A DNA stretch of 64,000 bases from Treponema sp. (GTDB lineage: Bacteria; Spirochaetota; Spirochaetia; Treponematales; Treponemataceae): the NCBI GenBank assembly GCA_016283615.1, contig JAEENG010000032.1, positions 1 to 64,000 on the forward strand, given 5' to 3'. Below the pieces are notes generated by a model. It was not told where the DNA came from, ran no database searches, and was given only the letters and a program-made list of their open reading frames with translations. The position numbers were made by a program, and so were the translations under genes. Below are positions 42,397-51,898 of the stretch, one piece after another (positions within the stretch are counted from its first letter, which is position 1; each line of letters opens with the position of its first letter).

Positions 42397-42425
42397 TTGA
42401 CACTTTTTTGCCAAAGAGTTATATT
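42397..42425 (+). promoter_or_regulatory. Strong sigma70-type promoter TTGACA-N17-TATATT
   Basis: Hexamers with exact 17-nt spacer, upstream of rimP. Confidence 0.7.
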
Positions 42426-42451
42426 AGATGTACATTTTAATAGAAATATTT

Positions 42452-42489
42452 AAATGGATCCGCGCAAACGGGTCCATTTTTGTTTTGCA
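42452..42489 (+). terminator. Terminator-like leader hairpin between the rimP promoter and rimP
   Basis: AAATGGATCCG-CGCAAA-CGGGTCCATTT (11 bp, one G-U) followed by TTGTTTTG. Confidence 0.55.
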
Positions 42490-42507
42490 GGAAAGTCAGA
42501 GAAAATT

Positions 42508-42981
42508 ATGGATTATATTGCACTTGATACTATCCCTCATTATTCAGAGTGCGAAAGCATTGTCAGTGAGCTTGGTTATCATCTTGTAGAATTAAAACTC
42601 TCAAGACAGGGAAAAACTACCCATATTCTTGCCACCATTACTGCAGAAGATCCTTCTGTGAGTATCGGTGTAAATGACTGCTCCAAAGTGCATAAGATTC
42701 TTCTTCCAAAAATTGAAGAAATACTTGGAACTGATGACACCTACATGGAACTTTCTTCACCTGGAATGGAGCGAAACTTTAAGAATGCGGCTGAATTTGC
42801 TCTTTTTAAGGGCAGACAGGTTCGTGTGTGGGACAAAACTGTAACAGACTGGGTCGGCGGAATCGTTGTTGATTCTGACGATAAGTCAATTACTCTGGAA
42901 ATTACGCAGGACGACGGTTCTTCCGTACAAAAGACCGTAGCCTACGTTGATATAGCAAAAGCAAAATTTATTCATTTGTAG
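42508..42981 (+). CDS. rimP: Ribosome maturation factor RimP
   Basis: Located upstream of nusA; DPSVSIGVNDCSKVHKILLPKIEE...YMELSSPGMERNFKNAAEFALFKGRQVRV. Internal Met of the tracked ORF chosen as start. Confidence 0.88.
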   Translation: MDYIALDTIPHYSECESIVSELGYHLVELKLSRQGKTTHILATITAEDPSVSIGVNDCSKVHKILLPKIEEILGTDDTYMELSSPGMERNFKNAAEFALFKGRQVRVWDKTVTDWVGGIVVDSDDKSITLEITQDDGSSVQKTVAYVDIAKAKFIHL

Positions 42982-42993
42982 GAGGCTTGAAAT

Positions 42994-44448
42994 ATGTCAG
43001 AAATGGCAGAGGCAATCCGTGAACTCATGCAGGAAAAAGGAGTTACGGAAGATTCTATCAAGCAGACTGTGGAAAGCGCCATCAAGGCGGCTTATAAAAA
43101 AACATTTGGTACAGCAGATAACTGTGTTGTAAAATTTGCAGACGATTTGTCAGATGTTTCTGTTTATTCAAGAAAGACAATCGTAGACGGCGTTTACGAC
43201 CCTGTAACCGAAATTGAACTCGAAGAAGCTCTTAAAATGAGCGATGAATGCGAAGAAGGCGACGAAATCGACATTCTTGTTGACCCTAAAGATTTTGAAC
43301 GTTCAGCTGTTTCTACAGGTAAGCAGGCTGCTCACCAGGGCCTGAACGAAAGCTTTAAGGACAATCTTTACAACGAATACAAGGATAAGACCGGAGAAGT
43401 TATCATCGGTTATTATCAGCGTGAACACAACGGCAACATTTATCTCGACCTCGGAAAGGTTGAAGGTATCCTGCCTGTTAAGTTCCAGAGCCCGAGAGAA
43501 GAATATCACAAAAATGACCGCATCAAGGCTGTTATTGTTGATATCAAAAAGACAAATTCAGGACTCCAGCTCGTATTGAGCCGTTCGGATCCAAGACTTG
43601 TACAGTCAATTGTAAGCCTTGAAGTTCCTGAAATTGAAGACAAAACTATTTCTATTCATAAAATCGTACGCGAAGCAGGTTACAGAACCAAGATTGCCGT
43701 GTACTCAGATAAAGAAGATGTTGATCCTGTAGGAGCATGTGTTGGTCTTAAGGGTGTTCGTATCCAGAACGTTATCCGCGAACTTGAAGGCGAAAAAATC
43801 GACGTTCTCAAATATGATCCGGATCCTGTTGAATTCATCAAAAACGCTCTTTCTCCGGCAGAAGTTGAAAAAGTTCTCATCACTGACGAAGAAAAACGTA
43901 CTGCTCTTGCAATCGTTAACGAAAGCCAGTTCTCACTTGCCATCGGTAAACAGGGACAGAACGTACGCCTCGCAAACCGTTTGTGCGACTGGAGTATCGA
44001 CGTTAAGACAGAAGAACAGGCTGCAGAAATGGATTTGAGCGAATTTACTTCACGCCGTGCCGCAGAAGAACTGTTCAATACATCTGAAGAAACACCTGCT
44101 TCCGGCGAAGAAGAAATTTCAACAATCAGCGATCTTCCTGGTGTTGACGCTGACGTTGCTGCAAAACTTAAGGCTGCAGACCTTGATGATATCCAGGCAT
44201 TCGTAGATGCTTACGATGACGGAAACCTTTCTGTAGAAGGTGTTACTCAGGAACAGCTCGACGCAGTTAACAAAATTATCAGAGATGTAGTAGAATTCGT
44301 TGAAGAAGACGAAGAAACTGCTGAATCTGAAGCTCCGGCCGAAGAAGAAGCCGACGATGAAGAATATCATTGTCCGGAATGCGGAGCAAAGATTACACTT
44401 GATATGACAAAGTGTCCTAATTGTGGTGTAGAATTCGAATTTGAATAA
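42994..44448 (+). CDS. nusA: Transcription termination/antitermination factor NusA with C-terminal zinc ribbon
   Basis: S1/KH regions (DPVGACVGLKGVRIQNVIRELEGEKIDVL; SLAIGKQGQNVRLANRL); C-terminal CPECGAKITLDMTKCPNC. Confidence 0.94.
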   Translation: MSEMAEAIRELMQEKGVTEDSIKQTVESAIKAAYKKTFGTADNCVVKFADDLSDVSVYSRKTIVDGVYDPVTEIELEEALKMSDECEEGDEIDILVDPKDFERSAVSTGKQAAHQGLNESFKDNLYNEYKDKTGEVIIGYYQREHNGNIYLDLGKVEGILPVKFQSPREEYHKNDRIKAVIVDIKKTNSGLQLVLSRSDPRLVQSIVSLEVPEIEDKTISIHKIVREAGYRTKIAVYSDKEDVDPVGACVGLKGVRIQNVIRELEGEKIDVLKYDPDPVEFIKNALSPAEVEKVLITDEEKRTALAIVNESQFSLAIGKQGQNVRLANRLCDWSIDVKTEEQAAEMDLSEFTSRRAAEELFNTSEETPASGEEEISTISDLPGVDADVAAKLKAADLDDIQAFVDAYDDGNLSVEGVTQEQLDAVNKIIRDVVEFVEEDEETAESEAPAEEEADDEEYHCPECGAKITLDMTKCPNCGVEFEFE

Positions 44449-44469: not shown

Positions 44470-47235
44470 ATGTCTGACGAATCAGAGAAAAAGCCCGGAT
44501 TTGTATTAAACAAAAAAAAGTCAGAGCCTTCAGAAAATAAGGCTCCGGCTAATCCAGAAAAAAAGAAAGTTATTGTTGTACGCAAAAAGAATCCTGCTCC
44601 AGAGGCAAAGGCTGGCCAGAACAATGGCGAGCAAAAGAATTTGCGCCCTGTAGTAAAAAAGGCTTCTCCATCAGCAGCAGCTCCTCAAAATAACGGCCAG
44701 CGCCCGCAGCAGAAAACAGGCGGTCAGGGTAGAACTACTTTCGAAATCAATACTGCCCGCCCTAACGTAAAAGCCGGAAACCTCTCGGACAGAGGCCGCC
44801 CGAATTATCGCGGCAACGGTACCGGCGGTTACGGAAACCGCGAGGGCTACAATGGCCAAAACCGTCCTGGTTACGGTTCACAGCGTCGTGATGGTTCAGG
44901 ATTTTCCGGGGCTCAGGCACGCGAAAATTATCAGAACAATAAAGACCGTGGTTTTGGCAACAATAACCAGGGTGGTTTCCGTGGCGGCCAGAATGGTGGT
45001 CGTCCGGGCTTTGGAAACCGTCCGGGCTTTGGTGCTAATCGTCCTCAGGGTGCAGGCGGAAGACCTGGCTTTGGCGGCGGAAGACCTGGTTTTGGCAGTA
45101 AACCTGGCTTTGGCGGTGCACCAGCCGCAAGTGCAATTCCTGAAAAGGCTAACACTAAAAAGCAGTTCAAGGGCAAAAAACAGGTTTATAACCGAAAGGA
45201 CAAAGAAGAATTATTTGACGAAGAAGAACTTTACAAGAAGAAGCAGGTTACTCCTGCAAGCGTAGTTCCTAAGTCAATTGATATTATGGAAAGCGTATCG
45301 GTTTCTGACCTTGCCAGAAAGATGAACCTTAAGGCAGGCGAAATTATCGGTAAACTCATGTCGATGGGCATGATGGTTACAATCAACCAGTCAATCGACT
45401 CTGATACAGCAACTCTTCTCGCAAGCGAATACGGCTGTGAAGTTCACCTGGTATCTCTCTACGACGAAACTGTTATCGAAAGTGATGCAGGTAAAGAAGG
45501 CGATGAAGAATTCCGACCGCCAATCGTTACCGTTATGGGTCACGTTGACCACGGTAAAACAAAGACACTCGATGCCATCCGTAAGACAAACGTTGCCGCA
45601 GGCGAAGCCGGCGGTATTACACAGAAAATCGGTGCTTACCAGGTTAAGACAGACAAGGGCGTAATTACCTTCCTCGATACACCTGGTCACGAAGCCTTTA
45701 CAATGATGCGTGCACGTGGTGCTCAGATTACAGACGTCTGTGTTCTCGTAGTTGCGGCTGACGACGGCGTAATGCCTCAGACTCTCGAAGCCTTGAGCCA
45801 CGCAAAAGATGCAAAGGTACCGATTATCGTTGCAGTTAACAAAATTGATAAACCTGATGCAAACCCTGATAAGGTAATGACTCAGCTTTCTGAACAGGGA
45901 CTTACTCCTGAAGAATGGGGTGGAGATACTCAGTACGTTAAGATTTCGGCTCTCAAGGGCCAGGGAATCGATGACCTTCTCGATGCAATCCTCCTCCAGG
46001 CAGAAATGCTCGAACTCAAAACACAGTATAACTGTCGTGCAGAAGGTAAGATTATCGAATCCCGCGTTGACCAGGGCCGTGGTGTAGTATCATCGGTTGT
46101 AATCCAGCGCGGTACATTAAAAATCGGAGATCCTTTTGTTGCAGGTATTTATTCCGGCAAAGTCCGCGCCATGTTCAATGACAGGGGCGAAAAGGTAACA
46201 GAAGCTCTCCCGAGTATGCCTGTCGAAGTTCTCGGTATGGACGAAATGCCGAACGCAGGTGATCCGTTCCAGGTAACAGAAACTGAACGCGATGCACGCG
46301 ACATTTCTTCTAAACGCCAGGAACTCAAACGATTTGAAGCAGCCAAGGCAGTCCGCAAAGTTACCCTTGATAACCTTGTTTCTACAATCGAAGCAAGCGA
46401 AGTTAAAGAACTCAAAGTTATTATCAAGGCAGATTTGCAGGGTTCTGCAGAAGCCCTCAAACAGAGTCTCGAAAAACTTTCTACATCAGAAATCCGCCTG
46501 AATGTTATTCATTCATCGGCAGGTGCCATCAACGAAAGTGACGTTACTCTCGCAAGTGCTGACGAAAACGCAATTATCATCGGATTTAACGTTCGTCCTA
46601 CTCCAAAGGCAAAACTTCTTGCCGAAACAGAAAAGGTCGAAATCCGCAAATACAATATCATCTACAAGTGTGTTGAAGAAATTCAGCAGGCTATGGAAGG
46701 TATGCTCCGTCCGGACACAATCGAACAGAACATCGGTACTGTCGAAGTACGCAACACATTCCGCGTACCAAAAGTTGGTGTTATCGCAGGATGTTACGTT
46801 ACAGACGGTATGGTTAAAAGGTCTTGTACAGTTAACCTTATCCGCGACGGCATCGTAAAATGGTCTGGAAGCATTTCTTCCCTCAAGCGCTTTAAGGATG
46901 ATGCAAAAGAAGTTAAAGCCGGATTTGAATGTGGTATCGGTCTTGAAAACTGGCAGGATATCCAGGTTGGCGACCAGCTCGAATGTATCGAATACGTAGA
47001 AGTTGCCCGCAAACTCGGTGAATCCCTCATTGACGAAAAGGCCGAAGCAGAAAAACAGGCAAGTCTCCGTGAAGAAGCAGCTAAGGCAGAAGCTCTTGCT
47101 GCCGCAGAAGCAGAGGCCGCTGCAGAAGCAGAAGCAAAGGCAAAGGGTAAGGCAGAAAAGGCCGCTAAACGTGCCGCTGCCGGAAAGTCTAAGGCTAAAA
47201 AGCCTGCAGCTGATTCAACAGAAGGCGCAAACTAA
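44470..47235 (+). CDS. infB: Translation initiation factor IF-2
   Basis: RPPIVTVMGHVDHGKTKTLDAIRKTNVAAGEAGGITQKIGAY. Confidence 0.96.
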   Translation: MSDESEKKPGFVLNKKKSEPSENKAPANPEKKKVIVVRKKNPAPEAKAGQNNGEQKNLRPVVKKASPSAAAPQNNGQRPQQKTGGQGRTTFEINTARPNVKAGNLSDRGRPNYRGNGTGGYGNREGYNGQNRPGYGSQRRDGSGFSGAQARENYQNNKDRGFGNNNQGGFRGGQNGGRPGFGNRPGFGANRPQGAGGRPGFGGGRPGFGSKPGFGGAPAASAIPEKANTKKQFKGKKQVYNRKDKEELFDEEELYKKKQVTPASVVPKSIDIMESVSVSDLARKMNLKAGEIIGKLMSMGMMVTINQSIDSDTATLLASEYGCEVHLVSLYDETVIESDAGKEGDEEFRPPIVTVMGHVDHGKTKTLDAIRKTNVAAGEAGGITQKIGAYQVKTDKGVITFLDTPGHEAFTMMRARGAQITDVCVLVVAADDGVMPQTLEALSHAKDAKVPIIVAVNKIDKPDANPDKVMTQLSEQGLTPEEWGGDTQYVKISALKGQGIDDLLDAILLQAEMLELKTQYNCRAEGKIIESRVDQGRGVVSSVVIQRGTLKIGDPFVAGIYSGKVRAMFNDRGEKVTEALPSMPVEVLGMDEMPNAGDPFQVTETERDARDISSKRQELKRFEAAKAVRKVTLDNLVSTIEASEVKELKVIIKADLQGSAEALKQSLEKLSTSEIRLNVIHSSAGAINESDVTLASADENAIIIGFNVRPTPKAKLLAETEKVEIRKYNIIYKCVEEIQQAMEGMLRPDTIEQNIGTVEVRNTFRVPKVGVIAGCYVTDGMVKRSCTVNLIRDGIVKWSGSISSLKRFKDDAKEVKAGFECGIGLENWQDIQVGDQLECIEYVEVARKLGESLIDEKAEAEKQASLREEAAKAEALAAAEAEAAAEAEAKAKGKAEKAAKRAAAGKSKAKKPAADSTEGAN

Positions 47236-47615
47236 TGGGTGAGTATCGTCTTGCAAAACTCGGTGAGCAGATAAGGGAAGAAATTGCGTCCCTTATCGCC
47301 ACCCAGAAAATTAAAGATCCTCGTGTTTCTACATTTTTGTCAATCAATCGTGTAGATGTAGTTGCTGATTTAGCCTACGCAAAAGTTTATGTATCAAGCT
47401 TTCTTCCGGAAGGTCAGATAAACAAGGGCGTTGCAGGCTTAAACAGTGCCGCAGGATTTATTCAGAGCACAATTGCTAAAAAACTTACAATTCGTAAATT
47501 TCCCAAACTTACTTTTATTGCAGATAATTCGATAAAAGAAGGTTTTGAAATGGTTCATAAATTGAATCAGCTTCAAGCGGAGGAAAATGGAAGCGGGCAG
47601 ACAACCGGAGAATAA
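47235..47615 (+). CDS. rbfA: Ribosome-binding factor A
   Basis: RLAKLGEQIREEIASLIATQKIKDPRV...AYAKVYVSSFL; operon position. Confidence 0.9.
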   Translation: MGEYRLAKLGEQIREEIASLIATQKIKDPRVSTFLSINRVDVVADLAYAKVYVSSFLPEGQINKGVAGLNSAAGFIQSTIAKKLTIRKFPKLTFIADNSIKEGFEMVHKLNQLQAEENGSGQTTGE

Positions 47616-49425
47616 AACTCAGTCGTCCTGCGGGATTCTGCTTCTTGCAAAGCAGTCCGGCAAGACGAGTTTTGCTTCTCTTTCAAAAGTTAAACGCTCT
47701 CTTGGAACAAGCAGGGTCGGCCACACTGGAACACTGGATTCTTTTGCGGACGGCCTTCTTGTAGTTTTAACCGGGCCTCTTACACGCCTGGTTCCTCACA
47801 TTACAAATTTTGACAAATCTTATACAGCTTTAATCGAATTTGGAAAAGAAACCGACACCCTTGATCCAACAGGAACAGTAATCAGGGAAAGTGGCCTTCC
47901 GTCAAAAGAGCAGGTCCTCAAGGCTCTCACAAAGTTTACAGGCACGATTGAACAGGTTCCGCCGGCTTTCAGTGCGATACATGTAGACGGCAAACGGGCA
48001 AGTGATTTGATGCGCTCGGGCGAAAAGGTTGAATTAAAGCCACGTACAATTACCATAAGTTCAATTGAATTAATCGATTTTGACGGACAGTACGCACTTG
48101 TAAAAGTGGATTGTTCAAAAGGAACTTACATCCGCTCCCTTGCACGCGACATTGCCCGTGAATGCGGCTGTGCGGCACATTTAAAGGCACTGCGCCGTAC
48201 CAGGGTAGGCCCGTTTGAATTAAAGGACGCAGCCGGAGCAGGTCTTTTAAAAGAGTTTACGATTCAAAACTTAAAGAATCAGAAGACTGCGCTTTGTGAA
48301 GACGCAGAAATTGCTGAAGACAAAATAAGCGGCGAAGATATTAAAAAAGCGTTGTACCCGATGACTGTGCCCGTTGCAAAATTGTGCGGTTTTACTCCTG
48401 CAATTTTGAGCCAGGCCTATATTCAGGACTTTAACAGCGGAAGAAAACTTAAAAACCACTCATTTTATTATGAGGAAAAACCGCCTGAGAACTGTGAATT
48501 TGCAGTTTTCTATCCGGACATGAAGTTTGCGGGCGTTGTAAAAAAAGAAAAACGCTCCCTTTCGTACGGTTTTGTAATTCCATGCGAGCAGAAGTTAAAG
48601 GTTTACTCATGGGAGCAGATTACAGGCGGAAGATTCAGTGAAGAATTCAGGAAAAAAGGTGTAGCCCTTTCAATCGGAAGTTTTGACGGAACCCATATCG
48701 GCCATGATTCAATTTTTGATTCACTTATTGAACATAAGGACCTTGCGCCAGGCATTGTAACTTTCAGAAAGTCAACGAGAGGCCTCAAAGCCGGTGACTC
48801 TTATATGGGCGATGTTTCTACCCTTGACCAGAGAATGGAATTCTTTATGCAGAAAGGATTTGCATTTGTTATCGTCATTGACTTTTCTGCCGATTTCGTT
48901 AAAATTAAAGGTGAAACATTTTTGTCTGTTTTAAACGACAACTGTAATATCAGATACCTTGCCGAAGGCGAAGACTTCCGCTGCGGTTACAAGGGAGCCT
49001 GTGATATCAACTGTGTCCGCGAATTCTGTCAGGCACATGATATTGAACTCAATGTCGTTAATTATGTAGATTACCTTGGAAAGAGGGTAAGTTCATCAAG
49101 AATCAGACAGGACGTTCTTGATAAAGAGTTTTCTGCAATTCAAATCATGCTCAGAAAACCTTTTGAAATTGACCCGGCGGGTTTTGAGTGGCAGTACACT
49201 CAGGAAGCCGGTCAAAATTATTTAGTTGCAAAACGCCGCGGAATTCAAGTATTTCCGCCTGACGGTTTGTACAATGTAACTTTGGAAATTTCTGGTAGCG
49301 AAGGATTTTCCGTTACAAAGGCTGCAGTTATTAAATTAGATTCCGGTTTACTTCGCGTGCTGGATTCTGATGGGTCACTCAGAGGATTTGTACGGTCTAT
49401 TCAATTTTGTATCCCAGGGAAATAA
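47587..49425 (+). CDS. truB: TruB-RibF fusion: tRNA pseudouridine-55 synthase + FMN adenylyltransferase-like domain
   Basis: TruB: VGHTGTLDSFADGLLVVLTG; RibF: KVYSWEQITGGRFSEEFRKKGVALSIGSFDGTHIGHDSIF and VSSSRIRQ, in one uninterrupted frame. Confidence 0.88.
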   Translation: MEAGRQPENKTQSSCGILLLAKQSGKTSFASLSKVKRSLGTSRVGHTGTLDSFADGLLVVLTGPLTRLVPHITNFDKSYTALIEFGKETDTLDPTGTVIRESGLPSKEQVLKALTKFTGTIEQVPPAFSAIHVDGKRASDLMRSGEKVELKPRTITISSIELIDFDGQYALVKVDCSKGTYIRSLARDIARECGCAAHLKALRRTRVGPFELKDAAGAGLLKEFTIQNLKNQKTALCEDAEIAEDKISGEDIKKALYPMTVPVAKLCGFTPAILSQAYIQDFNSGRKLKNHSFYYEEKPPENCEFAVFYPDMKFAGVVKKEKRSLSYGFVIPCEQKLKVYSWEQITGGRFSEEFRKKGVALSIGSFDGTHIGHDSIFDSLIEHKDLAPGIVTFRKSTRGLKAGDSYMGDVSTLDQRMEFFMQKGFAFVIVIDFSADFVKIKGETFLSVLNDNCNIRYLAEGEDFRCGYKGACDINCVREFCQAHDIELNVVNYVDYLGKRVSSSRIRQDVLDKEFSAIQIMLRKPFEIDPAGFEWQYTQEAGQNYLVAKRRGIQVFPPDGLYNVTLEISGSEGFSVTKAAVIKLDSGLLRVLDSDGSLRGFVRSIQFCIPGK

Positions 49426-51863: not shown

Positions 51864-51898
51864 GACCGGTCTTCCGAAAGGGGACCGGTCTTTTTTTT
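51864..51898 (+). terminator. Intrinsic terminator after pnp
   Basis: GACCGGTCTTC-CGAAA-GGGGACCGGTC followed by eight T. Confidence 0.88.

Follow-up and report, generated by a model that had tools for sequence, protein, structure and literature searches.

Is the hairpin that stands between a promoter and the rimP-nusA-infB genes of a Treponema genome an attenuator, and is it set by NusA, the product of the second gene? The window, i.e. the whole stretch of DNA analysed, comprises 64,000 nucleotides. A sequence-only reading of it had described a near-consensus promoter and an 11-bp hairpin with a U-rich run 18 nt before rimP, and had suggested that NusA regulates its own operon at this hairpin. 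The features concerned are the following.

42397–42425, + strand: promoter, TTGACA (42397–42402), a 17-nt spacer and TATATT (42420–42425), with 11 of 12 consensus bases
42432–42441, + strand: conserved box ACATTTTAAT at the predicted transcription start, also the 5′ strand of P1
42433–42456, + strand: P1, a weak 5′ hairpin of CAUUUUAA (42433–42440) with UUUAAAUG (42449–42456), adjoining the terminator and alternative to its foot
42452–42479, + strand: P2, the terminator hairpin, AAATGGATCCG-CGCAAA-CGGGTCCATTT, 11 pairs, 5 of them G-C
42477–42487, + strand: U-rich run TTTTTGTTTTG, from the sequence the predicted 3′ end of a short leader RNA
42489–42495, + strand: Shine-Dalgarno-like AGGAAAG of rimP, by sequence
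42508–42981, + strand: rimP (Pfam RimP_N)
42994–44448, + strand: nusA (Pfam NusA_N, S1, KH_5)
44470–47235, + strand: infB (Pfam IF-2, GTP_EFTU, IF2_N)
51864–51890, + strand: terminator beyond pnp at the far end of the gene cluster, 22 nt past the pnp stop codon, the strongest terminator-like site of the window

The promoter lay where the sequence-only reading had put it and ranked first among the 29 promoter-like sites of the 12 kb scanned. For comparison, a set of ~230 spirochaete genomes was used; rimP leaders were drawn from 78 loci found through NusA and, via a RimP profile, from genomes of the genus, the family and the phylum. The promoter score was 10–11 of 12 at the same place in 113 of 139 family-level leaders, and shuffled controls peaked at 7–8. 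These 139 are the leaders with a recognisable start-site box, and nearly all of them come from the family. In 117 of the 139, the box began 6–8 nt past the −10 element, i.e. at the predicted transcription start. Read from the promoter, +1 is predicted at 42432 or within 1–2 nt of it, and because of this start, the short leader RNA is predicted to be ~53–56 nt long.

The box reads ACATTTTAAT in this genus, GTCAGTTTAAT in a subgroup and GAACA in other genera. As part of a 21-mer, it was unique in this genome. In the leaders of the GAACA class (L110, L113, L275–L277 and other loci, from genera outside this one), the predicted transcript starts with GAACA, often followed ~10 nt later by AUCCU, and P1 is not supported. 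GAACA and AUCCU are possibly a protein site in these genera. GAACA resembles the mycobacterial NusA site, but the likeness is too short to count.

The hairpin and its U-rich run were likewise present between the promoter and rimP as described, except that the gap from the U-run to the ATG measured 20 nt rather than 18. Among terminator-like sites on both strands of the 64 kb, the hairpin ranked second. None of six first-order Markov versions of the window gave a terminator-like site as good. The folding z-score of the leader alone was modest (−1.98); conservation is the decisive support for the hairpin being real.

A terminator was counted when a leader of at least 150 nt held, upstream of rimP, a hairpin of four or more G-C pairs together with a U-run. 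It was found in 206 of 213 leaders, a count that ignores kinship and is not independent of ancestry. Conservation of the element extends through most of the phylum. The stem is conserved in sequence as well as in structure, in clade-specific forms within the spirochaetes: GGAUCCG...CGGGUCC in the window, GGACUCG...CGGGUCY in much of the genus and GAGUCG...CGGCUC in other genera, where GAGUCG was kept in the stem of all 29 GAACA-class leaders. Across 40 leaders of the genus, the six core stem pairs were 96.7% paired, and three pairs (30–48, 31–47 and 33–45 of alignment A2) had changed on both sides, which is the covariation in other Treponema that had been proposed as a check.

One 1.1-Mb, T. 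pallidum-like genome (G056, locus L111) differs from nearly all its relatives in that no terminator-like hairpin precedes rimP, and the leader seems to have been lost. Several distant members of the phylum also lack a terminator before rimP. Control at this site is therefore dispensable in some lineages.

We also sought further copies that would make up a regulon, using a covariance model of P1 and the terminator. The rimP leader was the sole strong match in this genome (E=5e-15; the next match had 0.3), and in relatives the top match was nearly always the rimP leader. In one genome, G392 (79% complete, 4% contamination), there was a second strong match (G392:C35:864–917, E=5.5e-13) besides the one at C60. 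This is possibly a duplicate, a strain mixture or contamination.

The spacing of the element tells which process the hairpin serves. In 138 leaders, the predicted start (the box) was 33.3 ± 1.8 nt from the hairpin apex, and the apex was 54 ± 24 nt from the rimP start codon, with a range of 28–186 nt. In other families and orders of the class, genomes of 1.0–1.8 Mb included, the apex mostly lay 36–43 nt beyond the end of the −10 element. As the distance to the promoter is near-fixed and that to the gene is variable, the hairpin follows the promoter in its position rather than the ribosome-binding site. This speaks for termination and against translational control. An action on translation or mRNA stability instead of termination is thus hardly credible to us: the hairpin does lie near the rimP ribosome-binding site in this genome, but that distance drifts among relatives, and a U-run follows the hairpin in nearly all leaders. 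A start site downstream of the hairpin, an arrangement that the sequence-only reading held to be incompatible with its attenuator, was excluded by geometry in many relatives. The hairpin-to-ATG distance is ≤30 nt in 48 of the 138 leaders, which leaves no space for a promoter.

The gene cluster runs rimP, nusA, infB, rbfA, truB-FAD synthetase, rpsO, pnp, with rpsO named from sequence and position only. Relatives align from residue 1, in support of the rimP start at 42508. The C-terminus of NusA carries a zinc-ribbon-like segment, CPECGAKITLDMTKCPNCG (Zn_ribbon_3). The 612-aa ORF at 47587–49425 (+ strand) joins TruB_N (E=1.6e-48) to FAD_syn (E=4.6e-29) and is, by these domain matches, a TruB/FAD synthetase gene fusion inside the rimP-pnp cluster.

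Upstream of rimP, the gene varies by species: a pseudouridine synthase, a transporter, a histidyl-tRNA synthetase, a tRNA-modifying enzyme and others. These names are sequence readings, and the window's own upstream gene is the one checked by profile (PseudoU_synth_2). In at least five loci, the upstream gene is divergent from rimP. Given this variety between species and the divergent cases, the hairpin was rejected as the terminator of the upstream rluA-like gene.

The same observations bear on the idea that the hairpin is an unregulated partial terminator, which simply damps a strong promoter or keeps upstream transcription out of the operon. A strong terminator placed directly behind a strong promoter would suffice for this. 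A block to read-through, however, needs no fixed distance to a promoter, some upstream genes are divergent, and the stem is conserved in sequence along with structure. We regard this explanation as very unlikely.

Could the RNA itself set termination? Taken alone, the 5′ segment folds into P1 at −3.8 kcal/mol, at a stage when the terminator has yet to be transcribed. The complete terminator P2 of the window has −15.0 kcal/mol, compared with −8.1 kcal/mol for P1 plus a short stem (the core), i.e. the alternative is 7 kcal/mol weaker. P1 was accordingly rejected as a strong antiterminator in the window. Folding of the leader in the window yielded no antiterminator able to beat the terminator. 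This favours a protein setting termination; the unregulated terminator, too, draws support from it.

A weaker role of P1 as a partial antiterminator is a separate matter. The leader RNA might have two states, in which its first 10 nt resemble the 3′ half of the terminator and pair with the A-rich foot as P1, tuning termination at ~+53, perhaps together with NusA binding. P1 was predicted in 58 of 110 leaders of the genus, mainly in those with short terminator stems. It exceeded dinucleotide shuffles in 73% of ACATT-class leaders (mean z of −5.3) and in 59% of GTCAG-class leaders; in the GAACA class the share was only 11%, so that other genera lend it no support. In 40 leaders of the genus, P1 was 93% paired, and changes in the foot mostly kept the pairing (U-A to U-G). 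Against this, its covariation is weak and tells little because the 5′ strand hardly varies, and pairing with the U-run would account just as well for the purine bias of the foot. Together with the energy deficit in the window, this makes such a switch improbable in our judgement. If it were real, the reason for keeping the ~33-nt spacing would be that start site, 5′ segment and hairpin are recognised as a single unit. We regard P1 as a genus-level feature with a possible influence on timing, not as the core of the mechanism.

This leaves the reading that we prefer and hold to be probable: the site is the leader attenuator of rimP-nusA-infB, with partial termination raised by NusA. RNA polymerase would start at ~42432 and meet the intrinsic terminator ~53 nt on, with the hairpin apex held ~33 nt from the start. 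A fraction of the polymerases would stop there and release the short leader RNA; the remaining ones would read through into rimP, nusA and infB, and probably on to pnp. NusA would bind the polymerase and aid hairpin formation in the exit channel. Abundant NusA would then lead to more termination and less NusA synthesis. What we infer is termination in the cell, its partial extent and its control by NusA. As for attenuation, the original proposal is well supported by a terminator that is conserved and covarying, sits at a fixed spacing from the promoter and is independent of the upstream gene.

In Bacillus subtilis, a stem foot of weak A-U pairs and a U-run with interruptions have been linked to NusG- and NusA-stimulated terminators (PMC8060035). 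The terminator of this leader shows both features. The U-run also holds TTGTTT, a match to TTNTTT, the pause motif that NusG binds in B. subtilis (PMC8060035). This is one reason to consider an attenuator set not by NusA but by NusG, RimP, a ribosomal protein or general polymerase speed. RimP and IF2 are further products of this operon, and sequence data cannot name the factor. NusA feedback, on the other hand, is the mode reported in B. subtilis and Escherichia coli, and we consider another signal possible but unlikely. NusA feedback is likely at the Treponema leader by analogy, because it has been reported for such leaders in these two species and proposed for Streptococcus agalactiae.

Antitermination of the boxA type was also considered. 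No convincing match was found between the rimP leader and the rRNA leaders of relatives. The 16S rRNA leaders (L131, L135, L144, L150, L152, L154) carry GATMTTTGAMA and then a purine-rich GGGAAGGGAAAG run, which by sequence looks like a spirochaete boxA. With this motif, the rimP box of the genus shares only A/T-rich positions, and in other genera the box is GAACA.

Known families of leaders were compared as well. No Rfam family scored above threshold for the leader. RF01770, the gammaproteobacterial rimP leader, has the same gene and position as the Treponema leader, but neither the window at E up to 10 nor a wider stretch at E up to 1 matched it. The L20 leader (RF00558) was rejected at 26.2 bits against a gathering threshold of 58.7, in a rimP-nusA context.

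The closest published systems are rimP leaders of other bacteria. In B. subtilis, experiments established that NusA stimulates intrinsic termination within the 5′ leader of the nusA operon (Mondal et al. 2016, as related in PMC12288461). The mechanism was shown there, according to that account, and for the Treponema leader we infer it. The B. subtilis leader is ~180 nt long (PMC2965389), compared with the predicted ~53 nt of leader RNA here. In S. agalactiae, a firmicute, RNA-seq placed termination 31 nt from the start of gbs0413-0418 (rimP-nusA-infB), and feedback by NusA was proposed, supported by genetic work in E. coli (PMC4448216). Both leaders are very short, the Treponema one by prediction. 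NusA-operon attenuation, known from experiments in E. coli and B. subtilis and from RNA-seq of a streptococcus, is thereby extended to another phylum on strong comparative evidence. A constraint not stressed in the cited papers is that the terminator keeps a near-fixed distance to the start site and a varying one to the gene. The leader also offers a compact natural substrate for testing NusA action at a terminator met very early.

The NusA proposal is not new, since rimP-leaders with NusA as suggested regulator were described in 2010. They were named the most widespread attenuators, and NusA was the favoured regulator because of the conserved stem sequence and because no antiterminator was seen (Naville and Gautheret 2010, PMC2965389). 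Spirochaetes are not mentioned in the main text of that paper. The window leader shares with these attenuators the position of the terminator, past the promoter and ahead of rimP as the first gene of rimP-nusA-infB, as well as a conserved stem sequence and the lack of a competing antiterminator. It differs in the stem itself, which has the published signature GGGc...gCCC in the species of that study and the forms given above in the window and other spirochaetes. On these sequence features, the leader is filed as an attenuator of the same kind, and the published stem signature is not claimed for it. It is clearly a new case of the already described rimP-leader attenuators, and a modest surprise as such.
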